Source: Chloroflexota bacterium
GTDB taxonomy: Bacteria; Chloroflexota; UBA6077
DNA: 7,360 nucleotides
Reading direction: 5' to 3'
NCBI GenBank assembly: GCA_021788565.1
Contig: JAJYKO010000253.1
Coordinates: 1 to 7,360, forward strand
The notes beneath the pieces are model-generated. The model did not search any database and was not told the DNA's origin. It saw only the letters and a program-made list of their open reading frames with translations. Positions within the stretch are counted from its first letter, which is position 1. Each line of letters opens with the position of its first letter. Of this stretch, positions 1 through 7,360 are shown in pieces. A program made the position numbers and the translations under genes.

Positions 1-966
1 CAACAGGGAGCTACGGGCGTTCCCGTTGGGGGTGGTAGCCCCGCCCGGCCACGGAACAGCCCCCGAACTCGTGCCCATCGTCGCCTTAGTGCCGTGCGCG
101 ACGTGGCATGTTAGACACACCATGGAACGGTTGTCCGGCGAGGTGGAAGGCGGTCCGCCGTTCACAGTGCTCACCGGCAGGGCAAGGTTGCTCGGGAAGC
201 TGTAGGTGATCCCACCAACCACGGCTCCCGAGGGCGCATCGATCCTGTGCTCGAACTTGTATATGAAGTCGCTTGAGGCGGTCTCGCCCGAGCCGCTGGC
301 CGTGGCCATGTATCGGGTGTGGCAGGCGGCGCAGAAGGTGGATATCTCCCACTGTCCGCTGCCGGCGGTCGGCTTGTAATACGTCGGAGTCGTATAGCTC
401 TTGGCGGAATCGTCGGTAGGTGTGACCTTCACAGTCACCCCGTTGATGTCGGTCCTCAGCATCCGGTAGTTAGGGCTCCCGTGGGGATCGTGACAGCTGG
501 TGCAGTAGAGATCGAAGCCGGTGCCGGCGATACCGGGGCCGCTAGAATTGGCCGGCCCCGCCCCCCACATCATCGCCGTGCTGCTGTATCCGGGCATCCC
601 CTGTACCATGTGGATCGAAGTCACCGGCCCGCTGGTCGCGGTACCTGTCAGTCCGGTGTCCTGTTTGGCGCTAACGAAGCCGCCGCCGTCGAGACCGGCG
701 TTCTGGACGCCCTGGGTGGTCCCTTTGTAGATACCATCCACCACGTCGGTCTCGGCCCCGGTGGCGCCCGAGCCGTGGCAGGTGAGACACAGGGCCGTCT
801 CCGCGCTGGTCAGCAGGTTGGCCGTGGTTGCCGTGTGAGTGCGGTGGCAACCGGCGCAGGCATCAGTAGAGGCGGTGTAGGATCCGTGAGGACCGCCGTC
901 GGCTAGAGCCGGCTCCGTCCACACGGCCAGCAGCACCGCCGACAGGACTACGGCCGTCCTCAGCAT
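1..966 (-). CDS. Secreted multiheme cytochrome c, doubled-CXXCH family (3' end cut by window edge)
   Basis: The reading frame is open from an ATG at 966 to the window edge: 322 codons without a stop, so the C-terminus is missing. GAGG (976-973) lies 6 bases before the ATG. Residues 1-22 form a signal peptide with a hydrophobic core ending in an Ala-Leu-Ala cleavage motif, so the protein is exported. Five heme motifs are visible: CAGCH (37-41), CLTCH (60-64), CTSCH (155-159), CAACH (212-216) and CLTCH (284-288). CTSCH is followed by DPHG and then an NYRMLR segment, and CLTCH 284 by VAHG. Both are typical of doubled-CXXCH cytochromes, where the trailing His can be an axial heme ligand. The visible end (NARSSLL) is the kind of segment that often precedes a final heme motif in this family, so at least one more heme is likely just outside. 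It is the last visible gene of the operon, 22 bp after the NHL gene. Family assignment is confident; partner and substrate are unknown. Confidence 0.9.
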   Translation of the reverse strand, partial: MLRTAVVLSAVLLAVWTEPALADGGPHGSYTASTDACAGCHRTHTATTANLLTSAETALCLTCHGSGATGAETDVVDGIYKGTTQGVQNAGLDGGGFVSAKQDTGLTGTATSGPVTSIHMVQGMPGYSSTAMMWGAGPANSSGPGIAGTGFDLYCTSCHDPHGSPNYRMLRTDINGVTVKVTPTDDSAKSYTTPTYYKPTAGSGQWEISTFCAACHTRYMATASGSGETASSDFIYKFEHRIDAPSGAVVGGITYSFPSNLALPVSTVNGGPPSTSPDNRSMVCLTCHVAHGTKATMGTSSGAVPWPGGATTPNGNARSSLL

Positions 967-988: not shown

Positions 989-2008
989 TCAGTAGCTCCA
1001 CACCTGGACCCGATTGTTTTCGCGGTCAGTGATGTACAGACGGTCGCTACCGTCCACGGCGAGACCATTGGGGAAGTTGAACTGGCCGTCGCCTATACCC
1101 TGGCTGCCCAGGGTGAAGAGCAGCTTCGCATCCTGGGCGCCGAGCTCAAGAACGAGCACCTCGTGATTGGAGGTGTCCGCGACGTAGACCCTGCCCTTGG
1201 AGTCGACGGCGAGGCCCCTTGGCAGGCCGAAGGACGGGCCATCTTCTCCGTGCCCGATGGACCACTGGACTGTGCCTGAGGCATCCAGCACAGTCACCCG
1301 AGCGTTGTTGCTATCGGCGACCAGGATCCGGCCGCTCTTGTCCACGGCGATGCCGTTAGGGTAGCTGAACTCGCCGTCCCCGGCTCCTTCTCGTCCGAAC
1401 TGGCGCAACAGCTTGCCATCTGGACTCAGGACCACGACGCCGTGCTTGCCGGTGGGCGTGTTGGTCGCCAGCAGATTGCCTGCCGCATCGAAGGCGAGGG
1501 CCAGGGGGTTCCACGAACCCTTCAGCTCCGATGCCACAGCGAGATCGGCCACGAACTTGCCGTTCGGCGAGTAGATGTGCACGCTTCCCGTGCCCCGGTC
1601 GGCTACGTACACGTTCCCCTTCGAGTTGACGGCCACGTACACGGGAATCCGGCCGGCCGGATTGGAGCCGGGGGGGTTGAGTGACCCCAAGGGATGGCCG
1701 TCGCGGTCGAACACTTTGGTCTCCCTCGTGCCATCGCTCTCGGTCACGTAGACGCGATCACCCTTCGGCGACACCGCCACACCCAGGGGCCTGGAGACTC
1801 CATTGATGGAGAACAGAAAATGGGGGGCGGCCGCAACGGCTTCGGGAACCGCGGGCGGAAGCACGGCGGCCGCGGCACTGCGCTCGGTCTCCACCACGTA
1901 ACCGCTCCCCAGCTCGACCACTGCCGCGAGGCTCATCACCAGAACGGATAGGAACGCGATCTTCCATAACCTGGAGCCCAATGAGGGTTTTCGCCCTTTC
2001 ACTGTCAT
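989..2008 (-). CDS. Membrane-anchored six-bladed NHL-repeat beta-propeller protein
   Basis: 339 residues. Residues 14-32 form a hydrophobic segment after a basic N-terminus, so the protein is probably anchored with its propeller outside, or is secreted. An Ala/Pro-rich linker runs to about residue 62. Six NHL repeats follow, at roughly 72-108, 120-156, 165-204, 216-251, 262-300 and 312-339. They are recognisable by recurring P-x-G-(I/L)-AVD-x-x-G-x-(I/V/L)-x-V-(A/T)-D segments and by N-x-R-V-x-V near blade ends. There is no CXXCH motif, so it is not a cytochrome. NHL propellers bind proteins or ligands, and some are enzymes; I see no catalytic signature. The start overlaps the TPR gene stop in ATGA (2008-2005). 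A strong GGGAGG (2017-2012) sits only 3 bases before this ATG, so the GTG at codon 3 is an alternative start with better spacing. Its position in a cytochrome operon suggests a docking or assembly role, which is inference. Confidence 0.92.
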   Translation of the reverse strand: MTVKGRKPSLGSRLWKIAFLSVLVMSLAAVVELGSGYVVETERSAAAAVLPPAVPEAVAAAPHFLFSINGVSRPLGVAVSPKGDRVYVTESDGTRETKVFDRDGHPLGSLNPPGSNPAGRIPVYVAVNSKGNVYVADRGTGSVHIYSPNGKFVADLAVASELKGSWNPLALAFDAAGNLLATNTPTGKHGVVVLSPDGKLLRQFGREGAGDGEFSYPNGIAVDKSGRILVADSNNARVTVLDASGTVQWSIGHGEDGPSFGLPRGLAVDSKGRVYVADTSNHEVLVLELGAQDAKLLFTLGSQGIGDGQFNFPNGLAVDGSDRLYITDRENNRVQVWSY

Positions 2009-2994
2009 TCTCCTCCCAGCCTGCCGAGGCCCTGCTTCGCGGCGACGGAGTTGCCGTCGAGTTGAGCGGCCTTGCGATACTCGTCCAGGGCCGAAGTCCT
2101 CTTCCCCTGCTTCTCGTAAGTCATGGCAAGCCCCAGATGTACCTCGGCAGCGTTCGGCAGAGCCCTCTCCGCCTGCGTCAGCTCGTCCAGCGCGCTCGAG
2201 TAATCCGCGCGCGTGTAATCCACCATGCCGCGAGCGTACTCCGCGTGGTTCTCGTCTCCCTGCCGGCCGTAGGCCTGGAGGAGATCCTCGTAGGCGCCCG
2301 AGAAATCGGGCACCAGCCGCACTGCCTGCTGGTAGCTCTTGATCGCCTCGTCCACCCGCCCCTGCTGCGCCTGGGCATTGCCGAGCAGTCGCAGGGTATC
2401 GGCGTTGCCGCCATCGATCTGCAGGGCCTGAAGGAGCTCCTTTTCCGCGTCCGCGGTCCGGTTCTGCTTGAGGAAGATGCCGCCCAGCGACTGGTGAGCC
2501 TGGGCAAGTTGCAGGTTGCTCCCCGCCATGGAATTGTTTTTGTTCAGCTCCACGATCCTGGAGAGATTGGAGGCCGCCGATGCGAGGTCTCCCTTGCCCG
2601 CGTAAGCCTCCCCAAGGGCCAGGAGCGCCGCCTGGTTGTCGTGACTGAGCAACAGCGCCTGCTCAGCCTGAGAAACCGCGTCATCGTAGCTGCCCTTATC
2701 GACGAAGAGGTTGGCGATCGCCACCCTGAGTCCTGGGTTGTTGGGTTGCTGGCGGATCTGGTCCTCCAGGGCATGCGCGTCCCGATCCTCCACGGAGAGG
2801 CTGGAATATACGTAGTGCTGAACGTACCAATAGGCGGCCAGGCCGGCGACGCACAGCACCAGCAGACAAGCCGTGAGATAGATCGCGCTGGTCAACAGGC
2901 GGTCTACAGCTGCGCGCTCGCCGCTCGCCTTCGAGCCGCCATGGCGCTCCAGCGTACTCGCGGTGCCCTTACTTCGAAATACAAGCCGGATCAT
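2005..2994 (-). CDS. Membrane-anchored tetratricopeptide-repeat (TPR) protein
   Basis: 329 residues. A basic N-terminal tail of about 30 residues is followed by one transmembrane segment at about 33-58. The rest is helical TPR units from about 86 to 325. Typical TPR spacing is visible, for example LGEAYAGKGDLASAASNL (127-144), LLGNAQAQQGRVDEAIKSY (203-221) and LGLAMTYEKQGKRTSALDEY (287-306), each with the canonical small residues and a final aromatic or aliphatic position. I judge six or seven repeats. The likely topology is N-terminus inside and TPRs outside. TPR proteins with an N-terminal anchor (CcmI/CycH and NrfG) bind apocytochromes during heme attachment, so an apocytochrome chaperone or scaffold role is plausible but unproven. 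The ATG overlaps the stop of the upstream cytochrome in ATGA (2994-2991). The Shine-Dalgarno sequence is weak, so translation is probably coupled to the upstream gene. Confidence 0.92.
   Translation of the reverse strand: MIRLVFRSKGTASTLERHGGSKASGERAAVDRLLTSAIYLTACLLVLCVAGLAAYWYVQHYVYSSLSVEDRDAHALEDQIRQQPNNPGLRVAIANLFVDKGSYDDAVSQAEQALLLSHDNQAALLALGEAYAGKGDLASAASNLSRIVELNKNNSMAGSNLQLAQAHQSLGGIFLKQNRTADAEKELLQALQIDGGNADTLRLLGNAQAQQGRVDEAIKSYQQAVRLVPDFSGAYEDLLQAYGRQGDENHAEYARGMVDYTRADYSSALDELTQAERALPNAAEVHLGLAMTYEKQGKRTSALDEYRKAAQLDGNSVAAKQGLGRLGGE
2012..2017 (-). promoter_or_regulatory. Strong ribosome binding site inside the end of the TPR gene
   Basis: GGGAGG lies 3 bases before the ATG at 2008 and 9 bases before an in-frame GTG at 2002. 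The spacing leaves the exact NHL start open between these two codons. It is the strongest Shine-Dalgarno match I found in the operon, which suggests good translation of the NHL protein despite the 4-bp gene overlap. Confidence 0.55.
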
Positions 2995-3752
2995 CGCTTC
3001 GGCACCACCGTTCCAACCGGAGTCGGTGCCGGTGTCCCCACGGCCGCCACGTTAGGGGCAGCCACCGTGACTGGTCCCTGGGCGTGGCAAAATGAGCAGG
3101 TGGAGTTGTCGCGGCCAGCGTGGTTAACGGGCATGGCCGCTGCTGTGCCCCGACCGTGGCACTCGAGGCATCGATTGGCCTGGTCGGGAAATGCGTGAGG
3201 GATAGCGGGCGGTGCCTGGGGCTGGGTCGCGGCCACCGGCACCGCCGTCTTCGCCGGCGGAGTTGTCGCGCCCACCACCGGCGAGTCCTGCGTCTTGGGA
3301 AGGCCGTTGCTCGCCCGAACGTATTGGGCGACGGCTTTCATCTGATCGGCATCGAGGGGACCGCCCTGTTCCTTGCCCCAGGCCGGCATGGTGCCGCGTC
3401 CCTGAGTGATGGTCTGTTCCAGCCTGTCGCCGAGGCTATCTACGTACGATTGAGAGTTCAGGGGAGCGACGGGGATACGGTCCCCGGCGGCACCGTGACA
3501 CGACGCACATTGCTGCGAATACAGGGTCTTACCTTCCTTTACGAGCCCGCCTGAACTGCCATTGCTCATTGCGATCGACGGAAGCGGCCCAGATCCCGTG
3601 AGGAAAGCCAGCGCGGTAGCTCCAACCCGAAGCACCAGCAGAGCCATCAGCACTAACCCCAGGACGGCCAGAATGCGAGCACGTTTGCTCCGGCCGGAAG
3701 ACGGAGGCCGTTTCTCGGGCTTCGGTGGGATCGTCTGTCCATCTCCTACCAC
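2991..3752 (-). CDS. Membrane-anchored class I cytochrome c fused to a diheme repeat module (3 hemes)
   Basis: 253 residues from a GTG at 3752. This start is preferred because GAGG (3763-3760) is 7 bases upstream and because it overlaps the stop of the 15-heme gene by 7 bp. The same frame stays open further upstream, but those residues would lie wholly inside the previous gene. Order: short basic tail; transmembrane segment about 27-52; class I cytochrome c domain about 68-148 with heme motif CASCH (82-86) and Met122 in TMPAWG as probable distal ligand; Ala/Pro/Thr-rich linker about 152-183; then a diheme module with His186, CLECH (195-199), His211 and CSFCH (219-223). That module matches the repeats of the neighbouring multiheme proteins. 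A Pro/Val-rich tail ends the protein. The likely role is an electron relay anchored in the membrane, linking a donor there to the long multiheme cytochromes; this role is inference. Confidence 0.92.
   Translation of the reverse strand: MVGDGQTIPPKPEKRPPSSGRSKRARILAVLGLVLMALLVLRVGATALAFLTGSGPLPSIAMSNGSSGGLVKEGKTLYSQQCASCHGAAGDRIPVAPLNSQSYVDSLGDRLEQTITQGRGTMPAWGKEQGGPLDADQMKAVAQYVRASNGLPKTQDSPVVGATTPPAKTAVPVAATQPQAPPAIPHAFPDQANRCLECHGRGTAAAMPVNHAGRDNSTCSFCHAQGPVTVAAPNVAAVGTPAPTPVGTVVPKR
3084..3197 (-). repeat. Single diheme repeat module appended to the class I cytochrome
   Basis: This segment encodes residues 186-223: IPH, CLECHG, then NHAGR, then CSFCH. It is the same layout as one repeat of the 15-heme protein, with a heme motif, a His followed by x-G-R, and a second heme motif. 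The second His-to-Cys distance is the standard 8 residues; the first is 9. Confidence 0.75.
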
Positions 3753-5152
3753 TGGGTCGCCTCGTGACAGAGTAAGCAGTCGGTCCGCCCCTGGAGCGTA
3801 TGCGGTATCTTGGGCACACCGCCGGCCACGGGCTGGTGGCAGACCGGACACTGCTGGTTCGTTCGGTTGGCGTGGCTCGCGGGTAGAGCCCCGAGCTTCT
3901 GCGCGGAGTGGCAGTTCGTGCACTGCGGCCGATCCGCAATTGGATGCGGCGCCTGAGGAGGCTGAAGCGTCTGAGCGTGGCACGCCGTGCAGAGCGCTTC
4001 CGATCGCCCCTTATGATCCGCCGGGAGTGGAGCCAGCTTCCCGTCGCCGTGGCAGCTGAGGCACTGCCACATCCCGTCCAACGGGTGCGCCACCACCGTC
4101 GGAGTTTCGGTCTGGGTGTGGCAGATCTGGCAGGTCTGGTCCGTTCGCCCTTTATGGCTGGCGGGAAGCGGCACCGCTTTGCCATCGCCGTGACACAGGC
4201 TGCAGGTAGTCTTGCCCTCCAAGGTGTGCCCGATCTTCGGAACGGGCGTCGTCTGGGTATGGCAGATCTGACATTCCTGCTCGGTGCGTCCCTTGTGGCT
4301 GGCTGGCAGTGGCACGAGCTTGCCGTCCCCGTGGCACTCGGCGCACTTGGTCATGGCATCCAGGCCATGGGCGATGGGAGTCGGGATTTCGGTCTGCGTA
4401 TGGCAGATGGTGCAGGTCTGGTTGGTTCGCCCCTTGTGGTCGGCTGGAAGGGCGGCCATTTTCCCGTCCCCATGGCACGAGGTGCAGTCGGACTTGCCGT
4501 CCAGGGTGTGCTGGATCTTGACCGGCGTCAGCGTGTCGGTGTGGCAGATGACGCAGGTCTTGTCCGGGCGGTTCGAATGGTCGGCGGGAGTCGGCGCGAG
4601 TTTCCCGTCGCCGTGGCAGGTCGTGCAGCTGCCGTTCGTGTCTATCGGGTGCGGGACCTTCGGAGGTCCACCCGGGATCGGCGGATGGCAGCTCAGGCAG
4701 CTGTCGTTCTGCCGGCCATCGTGGGAGGCTGGCATCGGCCACATGACCAGCCTGCCGTGGCACGCGAGGCAATCCGCCCTCCCCTGGACCGCGTGGGGAG
4801 CGTAAGGTGCCCCGGTGGGCGAAACGGAGATCGAGGGCAGCTCAGTTACGGCCGCGACCGGCGCCAGGACGGCAGGGTTGGGCTGCGCCGGCTGCTGCGT
4901 TGGGGCGGTGGCTGCCGGCCGCGAGGTCGGGCTGGGTGCGGCGGTGGCCTGAACCTGCGCGGTGGGCCCAGGGGTTGGAGGTGGAGCGTTCTTGGGCGTA
5001 CACGCAGCCATCAAGGCCACCGCAGCGATGCTTGTGGTCGCGAGGACGAGCAGGCAGCCTACTCGTCGCCTCCTCCCGGTGGGCTCGTCCAGCCTCACCG
5101 CCTCACGCGCCTCGAAATCAGGTGCCCACACTTCCGAATGCTTCCTCAACAC
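3746..5152 (-). CDS. Lipoprotein-like 15-heme repeat cytochrome c
   Basis: 468 residues from GTG at 5152, with GAGG (5161-5158) 5 bases upstream and directly adjoining the preceding stop. Residues 1-30 are a long charged N-terminal region. Residues 32-50 are hydrophobic and end in LMAAC with Cys51, which resembles a lipoprotein cleavage site, so it is either a lipoprotein or a signal anchor. Residues 52-115 are a Pro/Thr/Ala-rich linker. Residues 120-463 are almost entirely repeat: 15 CXXCH motifs with first Cys at 128, 152, 176, 200, 223, 247, 270, 294, 317, 341, 364, 388, 411, 435 and 459. A His lies exactly 8 residues before each of these Cys. These are the only other histidines in the exported part, so every heme can be bis-His ligated. 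The two-heme unit is 47-48 residues with a CHGDGK-LPAxHKGR pattern. Its role is probably long-range electron transfer outside the membrane, by analogy with multi-domain cytochromes such as Geobacter GSU1996; this is inference. Confidence 0.95.
   Translation of the reverse strand: MLRKHSEVWAPDFEAREAVRLDEPTGRRRRVGCLLVLATTSIAAVALMAACTPKNAPPPTPGPTAQVQATAAPSPTSRPAATAPTQQPAQPNPAVLAPVAAVTELPSISVSPTGAPYAPHAVQGRADCLACHGRLVMWPMPASHDGRQNDSCLSCHPPIPGGPPKVPHPIDTNGSCTTCHGDGKLAPTPADHSNRPDKTCVICHTDTLTPVKIQHTLDGKSDCTSCHGDGKMAALPADHKGRTNQTCTICHTQTEIPTPIAHGLDAMTKCAECHGDGKLVPLPASHKGRTEQECQICHTQTTPVPKIGHTLEGKTTCSLCHGDGKAVPLPASHKGRTDQTCQICHTQTETPTVVAHPLDGMWQCLSCHGDGKLAPLPADHKGRSEALCTACHAQTLQPPQAPHPIADRPQCTNCHSAQKLGALPASHANRTNQQCPVCHQPVAGGVPKIPHTLQGRTDCLLCHEATQW
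3760..3763 (-). promoter_or_regulatory. Ribosome binding site deciding the start of the class I cytochrome gene
   Basis: GAGG lies 7 bases before the GTG at 3752, within the last codons of the 15-heme gene. It favours this GTG over upstream in-frame starts such as the one at 3983, which would lie entirely within the preceding coding sequence. Confidence 0.6.
3764..4795 (-). repeat. Tandem coding repeats: seven diheme units of 47-48 residues plus a half unit
   Basis: This segment encodes residues 120-463 of the 15-heme protein. First-Cys spacing alternates 24 and 23 residues through the middle and is 24-24 at both ends, giving diheme periods of 48, 47, 47, 47, 47, 47 and 48 residues (141 or 144 bases). 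The middle units are the most alike, with CHGDGK, LPAxHKGRT and ICHTQT conserved. The end units have diverged, for example CHGRLVMW at the first and CHSAQKLG near the end. This pattern fits expansion by internal duplication. Confidence 0.92.
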
Positions 5153-5554
5153 TCAAACCTCATCCACCGGCTGCTCTGAAAAGGGCTGCGCCGACCGCTC
5201 GCCGGCAACGTCGGGGCGCTCTCCCAGTAACCTGACCGCCGCCACCAGATCGGGGACGCCGGACGCCGTCAGGTGCCTGGCGGAGTAGATACCGAGCTGG
5301 TTGCTCTGGATGTTCAGCCGGATGACCCCGACCTCGGGACTCTGGCTGAGGATCTGGCTCAGCGTGAGCGCGAAGCCCGCTTCTGAGTCGTTGTCCTCCA
5401 CCAGGATCAGCCTGGGCCGTAGCGCGAGAAGCCGATCGTACGCGTCCTCCTGCCTGGCATCGACCAGTACCGGTTGACACTGCCCGTCGCTCAACAGGCG
5501 AGCGATTCCATCGGCGAAGAGTTGGTGGCGATAGAAGATGAGCGGAGCGTCCAG
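5153..5554 (-). CDS. Stand-alone degenerate response-regulator receiver-like domain (start uncertain)
   Basis: The frame ends with TGA at 5155-5153, directly before the next start. The earliest possible start after the in-frame stop at 5560-5558 is CTG at 5554 (133 residues). The first standard start codon is TTG at 5494 (113 residues). I prefer the longer form because codons 4-21 encode a segment containing HQLFADGIARLL, which resembles helix 1 of NarL-type receivers (HPLFREGLRxLL); the TTG start would remove strand 1 and most of that helix. Numbering from CTG: PRLILVE (47-53) matches strand 3, where the phosphoacceptor Asp is replaced by Glu53. The strand-1 acidic pair is missing (Tyr8-Arg9), and the conserved Thr after strand 4 is Asn81. 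No DNA-binding output domain follows. It is therefore probably a non-phosphorylated pseudo-receiver that acts by protein contact. A one-base frame error near 5555-5579, giving an ATG start at 5579, is another possibility. Confidence 0.62.
   Translation of the reverse strand: MDAPLIFYRHQLFADGIARLLSDGQCQPVLVDARQEDAYDRLLALRPRLILVEDNDSEAGFALTLSQILSQSPEVGVIRLNIQSNQLGIYSARHLTASGVPDLVAAVRLLGERPDVAGERSAQPFSEQPVDEV
5158..5161 (-). promoter_or_regulatory. Ribosome binding site for the 15-heme cytochrome
   Basis: GAGG lies 5 bases before the GTG at 5152 and overlaps the last codons of the receiver-like gene. It supports this GTG start and tight translational linkage of the two genes. Confidence 0.55.
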
Positions 5555-5767: not shown

Positions 5768-7360
5768 TTAGCTGGCGGCGGCTGCCTGCTGATGGCAGGA
5801 GGAGCAACTGTCGTTGGTACGGCCGCTGTGGTCGCTCGGCACCGGCGGCACCAGGTATGACGAGTGGCATGTCAGACAATCCTTGCGCCCCGCGATCACA
5901 TGCGGGATCTTGGGAGCGCTCCCTGACTCGTCGATGCTCGATGGGTGGCAGCCGATGCAGGCGGCGCTCGGCCGTCCCTTGTGGTCTGCCGGCTCCGGCC
6001 GTAAACCGCCAGGTCCGTGGCACGCCAGGCAGTTCGAGCGGCCTTCCACCAGGTGGGGTGTATCGGGCGCCCGTCCAGGAATATTGACCTGCGGCTGCGG
6101 CTGATGGCAGTTCTGGCAAGTCTCGTTGCCCCCGGCCATGCCCGCGTGGCTGACGGCGACCGGACCAAGGAAGCCCTTACCGTGACAGGTCAGGCAGTCG
6201 GAGCGGTTCTGGATCGAGTGCGGCACGTCCGGGGCACCGGGCGACGGCCGGGTGTCGGCCTGAGGGTGGCACAGGACGCACATCTCGTTCGGCCGGTTCG
6301 CGTGGTCTGCCGGAACAGCCGGGATAAGCGGCGACGAGTGGCAGGTGGCGCAGTCAGTGCGGCCGTCGAGGGAGTGCGGGATCTGGGGAGCCGCGTTCTG
6401 CTGGGCCTGCGCCTTCGTGGGGGCCTGGTGGCACATGGTGCAACTCGCGTTCGTGCGTCCGGTGTGGTCCGAGGGGGTCGGGCGCAATCCACCCTGGCGA
6501 TGGCAAGACAGGCAATCGCTACGGCCGTCCACCGCATGAGGGATCGCGGGACCGCCTGCGGGCGCCGGGCCGGAGATGGTCGTTGTGTGGCACAGCGTGC
6601 ACTGTCCGTTCCCTATACCCTGATGGTTCGCCGGTGCCTTATGTAGGGCACTGTGGCAGCTTCCGCATGCCGCCCCAATCCCATGCCGTGTAGCGTAAAT
6701 CGGTTTGTTGGAGGAGCCGGCATGCGCCGGAGCGGGCTCGACCTGGACGGAGATCCGGCCGGATACCTGGGCAGGGTTGCCCCGACTATCGGTGCCGGTC
6801 GCGGCGACGATGATCTCGTACTTGCCGGGCTGCTGGTCCAATGGGACACTGACCAGGGCGTCCGTGCCCATCGAATTGGCGCGGCCGTCGGCGTCTCCGG
6901 GGCCGCCGTCGTCCCTGGCGGCCGAGTCCACACCCTGCACCGACCACGAGGAGGCAGAATAGTCTATGTAGTAGGAGCCGGGTTCGCTTGGCACGGGTTT
7001 CCATCGACCGCCGCTGGTTCCGTTGCCAGCCCCACCTCGGTTCCACGCCGGGCTCCAGAAGTCTCTCCCGCTACCATTCGGGCTCCAACCATCGACGGGT
7101 TTGCCGCTGCCGGGACCCACGGACCACGACGAGCTACGGGGACATACGATCTCGACCCCCACTCCCGGGTACTTCTGGAGATCGCCGGCCATCCCGACGA
7201 AGTGCACGGCAAGCTCGAAGGCGTCCCCCGCTCGGACAGACAGGGTGGGATTATCGGTGACGTCCCGACCGTTGATGGCCAAATAGAGCTTTCCATGCTC
7301 GTTGATCGACTTGTGGCAGGAGGTGCAGGGACCGTCCTGGTGGGCGAAGCCCTGTGCAGA
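5768..7360 (-). CDS. Multiheme cytochrome c with Ig-like region and 13 visible hemes (5' end cut by window edge)
   Basis: The frame is open from the window edge to TAA at 5770-5768: 530 residues visible, with the N-terminus missing. An internal TTG at 7282 is an unlikely start because a heme motif (CTSCH, residues 12-16, near 7320) lies upstream in frame. Residues about 27-210 hold no heme motif and look beta-rich: a V-x-P/A-G-D-x-F-x-L-x-V segment, an Ala-Arg-Asp-Asp-Gly-Gly-Pro-Gly-Asp stretch that might bind calcium, and a final YEIIVAATG to ISVQV strand pair. I call this an Ig-like or similar beta-sandwich. Residues 232-523 carry 12 more motifs, first Cys at 232, 254, 283, 307, 337, 361, 389, 415, 444, 468, 495 and 519. 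Ten of the 13 have a His 8 residues before the first Cys, the same rule as the 15-heme neighbour, but linkers here are longer and less regular. It is probably exported and works with the same electron-transfer chain. Confidence 0.93.
   Translation of the reverse strand, partial: SAQGFAHQDGPCTSCHKSINEHGKLYLAINGRDVTDNPTLSVRAGDAFELAVHFVGMAGDLQKYPGVGVEIVCPRSSSWSVGPGSGKPVDGWSPNGSGRDFWSPAWNRGGAGNGTSGGRWKPVPSEPGSYYIDYSASSWSVQGVDSAARDDGGPGDADGRANSMGTDALVSVPLDQQPGKYEIIVAATGTDSRGNPAQVSGRISVQVEPAPAHAGSSNKPIYATRHGIGAACGSCHSALHKAPANHQGIGNGQCTLCHTTTISGPAPAGGPAIPHAVDGRSDCLSCHRQGGLRPTPSDHTGRTNASCTMCHQAPTKAQAQQNAAPQIPHSLDGRTDCATCHSSPLIPAVPADHANRPNEMCVLCHPQADTRPSPGAPDVPHSIQNRSDCLTCHGKGFLGPVAVSHAGMAGGNETCQNCHQPQPQVNIPGRAPDTPHLVEGRSNCLACHGPGGLRPEPADHKGRPSAACIGCHPSSIDESGSAPKIPHVIAGRKDCLTCHSSYLVPPVPSDHSGRTNDSCSSCHQQAAAAS
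5792..6685 (-). repeat. Array of 12 heme-binding repeats in the truncated cytochrome
   Basis: Successive diheme units share a pattern of IPH, x-G-R-x-D, CLxCH, then SDHxGR and a second CxxCH. Unit lengths in the regular part vary from about 51 to 55 residues because the proline-rich linker before each IPH differs in length, unlike the near-fixed 47-48 in the 15-heme protein. One unit has HAGMAGGNETC, with 10 residues from His to Cys instead of 8. Confidence 0.85.

Follow-up and report, generated by a model that had tools for sequence, protein, structure and literature searches.

A 15-heme c-type cytochrome built from regular His-x7-CXXCH units, encoded with TPR and NHL proteins in a Chloroflexota bacterium

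The Pfam family Cytochrome_C7 (PF14522) comprises cytochrome c7 and related proteins, e.g. PpcA of Geobacter. Cytochrome c3 carries four hemes, two of them at CX4CH motifs, in about 107 residues. Its sequence in the PDB contains H22-x7-C30, where H22 is presumably the distal ligand of heme I. Ligation of a c-type heme by two histidines makes it low-spin and of low potential. Much longer heme chains are also described. In the MtrCAB complex 20 bis-His hemes lie in one pathway over 185 Å (PMC7198977), and large cytochromes with 22.4-25.1 residues per heme have been reported, for the similarly dense Burkholderiales members of which wires have been proposed (PMC7399161). Figure 5 of the latter paper presents large cytochromes of Anaerolineales (Chloroflexi) with many CXXCH motifs and variable heme number. 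Gene clusters for extracellular electron transfer in Dethiobacter alkaliphilus include NHL- and TPR-repeat genes and hold most of the cytochromes that are over-expressed in ferrihydrite- or thiosulfate-reducing cells; a role of the NHL and TPR proteins in secreting, orienting or assembling cytochromes is suggested by the authors (PMC10376724).

The window analysed here (i.e. the whole stretch of DNA, 7,360 nucleotides) encodes a 15-heme cytochrome, termed A, together with a number of other genes (Table 1). A looks like a known kind of protein, in a little-described version that is set apart by its marked regularity and by the genes around it. Our reading is that A is probably a tethered, surface-anchored wire of 15 bis-His hemes for extracellular electron transfer, located on the exterior of a Chloroflexota-like cell.

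Table 1. Positions of A, its parts and the neighbouring genes in the window.
Feature	Position	Strand	Description
D, doubled-CXXCH multiheme protein	1..966	-	Five CXXCH within the window, the gene continuing past its edge; 22 nt from the end of the NHL gene; homologues in the cluster of the relatives
NHL-repeat beta-propeller protein	989..2008	-	ATGA overlap with the TPR gene
TPR protein	2005..2994	-	ATGA overlap with C; homologues beside 15-heme relatives
C, CBB3-type cytochrome domain with 2-heme tail	2991..3752	-	One His-x7-CXXCH in the tail; start overlaps the A stop by 7 nt
A, 15-heme c-type cytochrome	3746..5152	-	468 aa, GTG as putative start; Pfam Cytochrome_C7 match
15 tandem His-x7-CXXCH units of A	3764..4795	-	Units of 23-24 residues, in 47-residue pairs; range given from H463 to H120
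Residues 52-115 of A, Pro/Thr/Ala-rich linker (tether)	4808..4999	-	From the sequence; pLDDT <50 at residues 52-108 in the full-length model
Residues 1-51 of A, probable lipoprotein signal	5000..5152	-	Basic leader, hydrophobic stretch, lipobox-like LMAAC with C51; assigned by eye
Small ORF	5153..5494	-	113 aa; ends directly before the A start
B, second cytochrome built from the His-x7-CXXCH unit of A	5768..7360	-	-8 His at 10 of its 13 CXXCH; 5′ end open at the window edge

A contains 15 CXXCH motifs between residues 128 and 459, spaced 23 or 24 residues from motif to motif, and all 15 have a histidine exactly eight residues ahead of the first cysteine (position -8). There is no CX3-4CH motif. 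The only other non-motif histidine is H5 in the leader, and the two non-motif cysteines are C33 and C51. These motifs and histidines had been listed, with no further histidine past the leader, in an earlier sequence-only reading of this DNA, and all 15 were confirmed with their coordinates correct. That reading had also described a one-heme repeat paired into units of 47 residues; this is borne out by the unit spacing, which gives seven pairs plus one unit, and by a 141-nt direct repeat in the DNA (i.e. 47 residues) that is present in four in-register copies. Three of the copies are 62-74% identical to the reference copy, so that the repeat has diverged and is not the product of recent slippage. 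The array had been called very compact, yet at one heme per 23.6 residues its density is ordinary, lying within the range quoted above for large cytochromes (PMC7399161).

A matches Cytochrome_C7 with 65.7 bits against a cut-off of 24.8, and the same family matches all 11 rows, at E <= 1e-3, of an alignment (A3) made up of A and ten relatives that are 39-47% identical to it. Pfam Paired_CXXCH_1 is also above its cut-off. A resembles Cytochrome_C7 in having tandem CXXCH motifs and no large inserts, and differs from it in that its 15 hemes form one array and each unit has its distal His at the fixed position -8. A also matches cytochrome c3 (PF02085), with 36.1 bits (cut-off 22.9), and the H22-x7-C30 of c3 has the same spacing as the units of A, contrary to the earlier view that this spacing differs from the c3 and c7 patterns. 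However, the four-heme layout of c3 with its CX4CH motifs is absent from A, where all 15 hemes are at CXXCH. The unit does match a described family, PF14522, and a tetraheme profile of A's family finds chain 6r2q_A as its top match in the PDB (E 3.7e-12). We take this chain to be the decaheme MtrA of MtrCAB, although the PDB listing labels it 'Cystathionine beta-synthase'. Next in rank come further multiheme cytochromes, MtrF among them.

More specific assignments did not follow. A reaches no cut-off among the five NCBIfam families that match it at E <= 0.01. It scores 57.3 bits with the DmsE/MtrA decaheme family TIGR03508, below the NCBIfam cut-off of 192.2; the heme density is similar to that of MtrA/DmsE, but A differs in having a probable lipid anchor. 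No porin family (i.e. an MtrB-type partner) occurs among the matches of seven window proteins at E <= 0.01, within the 7360-base contig. The hexadecaheme HmcA family NF045713 gives no match to A at E <= 0.01, and B scores 17.8 bits with it against a cut-off of 400.

The central domain of DnaJ (PF00684, DnaJ_CXXCXGXG) is matched with 33.0 bits, the cut-off being 32.7, and on this score A might be read as a zinc protein. It might otherwise be a multiheme reductase enzyme. Either identity is highly improbable. The PF00684 match is marginal and far below that to Cytochrome_C7, and all 15 motifs are CXXCH, while an enzyme would be expected to keep an open axial site for catalysis and 15 histidines for 15 hemes should leave none. 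The DnaJ zinc domain was rejected on its marginal score. Comparisons with PADLOC (for A), with PHROGs (for A and B) and with plasmids and phages (for A) returned no family or match, and a defence or phage reading of A was likewise set aside.

The N-terminal residues of A suggest a lipoprotein that bears a Pro/Thr-rich tether. The lipobox-like motif of A has Met at -3 instead of the usual Leu. By eye, a clear lipobox is present in seven of the 11 relatives for which the N-terminus is available (L001, L005, L008, L025, L048, L049 and P0001); it is unclear in L007, in P0002 and in L006, where Asp comes after VVAC, and there is none in L026.

The 15 positions within A are copies of one unit and are not independent of each other, so that the real test against chance is conservation among the relatives. 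Across the 11 rows of A3, 156 of 161 cells retain the -8 His. The cysteines and histidine of CXXCH are kept in 159/159, 160/160 and 160/160 cells, and at the other non-motif query columns the residue of A is matched in 1180 of 3156 cells (37%). By this alignment the -8 His pattern of A is beyond chance. (An alignment of shifted seven-heme fragments settled in the true position and not in the repeat register, and was left out.) A second histidine is thus conserved for each heme, which implies that the hemes of A are probably bis-His, low-spin and of low potential, and lends support to the ligation through the -8 His that had been put forward earlier. The exception is H120, the first -8 His of A, which is kept in only six of ten rows. 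In L008 and L025 heme 1 has a His at -15 in place of -8, and in L007 there are two, at -15 and -3.

We considered whether methionine replaces the missing histidines as ligand, and rejected this. Among 93 units lacking His at -3 to -14 there are five with Met at -8, and Met is found elsewhere in these units at -6 (5), -3 (9) and -2 (11), so that Met at -8 gives no signal.

Taken across the wider set of relatives, the -8 rule as read from the sequences is strong but not absolute, and heme number is variable. The His-x7-CXXCH pattern had been called invariant; this is true within A (15/15), whereas some units of the relatives carry His at -9, -10, -11 or -15. The -11 class comes mainly from three frames of one genome, G270 (26 at -11). 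As a check on which heme each His serves, units were sorted mechanically on flanking letters; the first units of the pairs departed from a spacing of 8 in 33 of 243 cases and the second units in 36 of 203, with no clear difference. Similarly, the exact 1:1 ratio of histidine to heme is a property of A and not a rule of the family. With histidines counted from 20 residues ahead of heme 1 onwards, the ratio is exact in three of 28 relatives (P0002, P0007 and P0034). P0044 is the sole case with fewer histidines than hemes (seven for eight), and the rest have more. Of 13 close relatives (the three frames of G270 and the ten rows of A3 apart from A itself) P0002 alone is exact, at 14:14; the other 12 have 1-4 extra histidines.

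The best matches to A in the protein search are P0001 (15 hemes, 14 with -8 His) and P0002 (14 of 14). P0002, as one member only, bears Ig-like domains. A search of genome contigs with A as a single protein found no relative. The same search with an alignment (A2) found two, a 15-heme relative with -8 His in 15/15 units from the Chloroflexi MAG FK_Sedi_B_Bin.16 (L001), and a shorter one with eight hemes, four of them with -8 His, from a Dehalococcoidia MAG (L002). The closest relatives, L048 and L049 of genome G422, are 50% identical to A and have 15 hemes each, 14 with -8 His. In further loci the numbers of hemes and of -8 His are 15 and 14 (L005), 15 and 15 (L006), 16 and 14 (L007), 15 and 12 (L008), 16 and 13 (L025), 13 and 12 (L026), and 12 and 12 in L009, which is cut by a contig end. 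Overall the close relatives carry 13-16 hemes, with one of 45. The last is a 1169-residue open frame of G270 (L036:6505-10011, + strand) in which 45 CXXCH of the unit of A are accompanied by 30 His at -8 and 13 at -11. Additional frames with 18 and 28 CXXCH are present in the same genome, on L036 and L037.

The relatives are sporadic in distribution. At E <= 1e-60 there are matches in five of 20 genomes of the order of L001 and in at least three of 400 genomes drawn from its phylum, the starting genome being included in both counts, and at E <= 1e-20 in at least 21 of 396 genomes of its class. In another class, that of G422, which is among the genomes with a match, there is one in 29 genomes, G422 itself. 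The His-x7-CXXCH array also occurs within proteins that carry, in addition, a NapC/NirT domain or a cytochrome b domain of the formate dehydrogenase type, in P0009, P0042, P0010, P0033, P0037 and L050. Joined to such domains, the array behaves as a mobile electron-carrying module.

In the window the small ORF, A, C, the TPR gene, the NHL gene and D follow one another on the minus strand, and from A to D the genes abut or overlap like an operon. The small ORF had been read by eye as a receiver; it has no Pfam match and no match to the receiver protein of L001, and this reading was dropped. No relatives of C were found at E <= 1e-30 among 396 genomes, in a search run without a positive control. 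B, which lies upstream of A and the small ORF, has one CXXCH at its start, about 200 residues free of heme and then 12 hemes; among its Pfam matches none has its best stretch in the middle part.

We note that the TPR and NHL genes and a gene for a doubled-CXXCH protein recur as a cassette in other genomes. The cassette is present in seven of 13 loci (L029-L038 and L048-L050) examined around genes for such relatives. The seven come from five genomes (G001, G012 twice, G119 twice, G156 and G302), and all have the order TPR, NHL, a 4-heme protein, a 6-heme doubled-CXXCH protein, the 13-16-heme protein and a large 7-heme protein; L029, L030 and L038 each contain a further 7-heme gene. The 4-heme protein has -8 His in 4/4 units. 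A stands before its TPR-NHL-D cassette, and in the loci of the relatives the multiheme gene comes after it. In L035 and L037, where the contig starts within the gene, the cassette is not seen; L036 has none within 6.5 kb upstream, and neither L048 and L049, the two closest relatives, nor L050 has a TPR/NHL cassette beside it.

On contig C74 of G422, which also holds L049, there are three TPR-NHL-doubled-CXXCH cassettes (L052:3481-15484 and L056:7668-10861), and one of them is then followed by a relative of B. This suggests that the TPR, NHL and doubled-CXXCH genes move together, also where no 15-heme gene goes with them. Other genes lie near the relatives. Downstream of the 15-heme gene in L001 (11673-15407, + strand), a subtilisin-like protease (subtilase, Peptidase_S8) and a doubled-CXXCH region with seven hemes are fused in one protein; the remaining six syntenic loci likewise have a large 7-heme frame on that side, the scan for protease domains covering L001. 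In L048 (1988-5683) a set of 4Fe-4S, NrfD and molybdopterin oxidoreductase genes is found among B12-/pterin-binding genes, about 3.3 kb upstream of the 15-heme relative.

The clusters of Dethiobacter can be set beside this arrangement by description only, their cytochromes being described as MtrA-, MtoA-, CymA-, SmhB- or OmcX-like (PMC10376724). The same applies to the Anaerolineales cytochromes, which belong to the same phylum as the named relatives of A; the passages that describe them mention no His-x7 rule and no TPR-NHL cassette (PMC7399161). Among the titles, abstract openings and text passages of the literature consulted we found no description of a regular one-His-per-heme family with a TPR-NHL cassette in Chloroflexota.

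The full-length model of A, from the 11-row alignment, is poor (pLDDT 57.0, pTM 0.23), and with it Foldseek returned four matches in the PDB at E 3.1-7.5. A tetraheme model of residues 303-396 reached a pLDDT of 83.2 and a pTM of 0.65, two of its five models being poor (60.2 and 47.8), and gave no Foldseek match in the PDB and BFVD. The tetraheme profile has a weak match to 7tfs (E 3e-4), which is listed as 'Cytochrome c' and which we take to be OmcE. From this match it might be supposed that A is the subunit of a polymer, i.e. of an extracellular cytochrome nanowire, and the low secondary structure of the A models is in keeping with that reported for known wires (PMC9473688). OmcS and OmcE are reported there to have no matches beyond themselves and close homologues, so the empty Foldseek result for the tetraheme model shows little as to the undescribed repeat fold that the sequence-only reading had suggested. 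Such a polymer seems to us improbable for A, which has a probable lipid anchor; moreover each heme has its own -8 His so that no neighbour-supplied His is needed, unlike OmcS and OmcE (PMC9473688), and growth of the repeat up to 45 hemes offers another route to length.

In the favoured reading, with A as a single tethered wire, the 15 bis-His hemes would form a rod that projects from the lipid anchor on its Pro/Thr-rich tether. From the membrane pool, electrons would enter through donors of the NapC/NrfD or CBB3 type (C next to A, for example), pass from heme to heme towards the surface and be taken further by the partner cytochromes B and D, with the TPR and NHL proteins acting as assembly or docking factors. 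Points that count against this reading are the poor full-length model and the two poor tetraheme models, the lack of a clear lipobox in four of 11 relatives, the missing cassette beside L048, L049 and in L036, and the sporadic distribution of the relatives. On the scale of MtrCAB the 15 hemes could reach roughly 130 Å if extended. A multiheme wire had already been proposed in the sequence-only reading, and we infer the same. The array could instead serve mainly as a surface electron store (a capacitor), its 15 low-potential hemes buffering electrons when the outside acceptor is absent. The high heme density would suit this, the sequence alone does not separate storage from transport, and charge storage is named beside wires for the dense Burkholderiales cytochromes (PMC7399161). 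We nevertheless consider storage as the main role unlikely, since the several other multiheme proteins in the cluster of the relatives suggest a chain, and an anchor with a tether suits bridging.

Within the wire, each unit may be self-contained, its own His ligating its own heme, by analogy to heme I of cytochrome c3; the alternative is that a given His serves a neighbouring heme. If the former applies, then His-x7-CXXCH might be a one-heme module that stacks, with no set limit of length, into a solenoid (the relatives span 4 to 45 hemes), making a length-adjustable tethered wire that together with the TPR-NHL-doubled-CXXCH cassette makes up an undescribed extracellular-electron-transfer system of some Chloroflexota. 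We put this forward only tentatively.

To our knowledge few envelope-crossing electron-carrying proteins of Chloroflexota are known. That members of the phylum can exchange electrons with solids is indicated by Ardenticatena maritima (PMC5808234). The conserved regular heme array of A and the recurring gene cassette provide a concrete candidate for an electron carrier of the Chloroflexota envelope, and if each unit is self-contained this would be a natural repeat with which to study how conduction scales with heme number.
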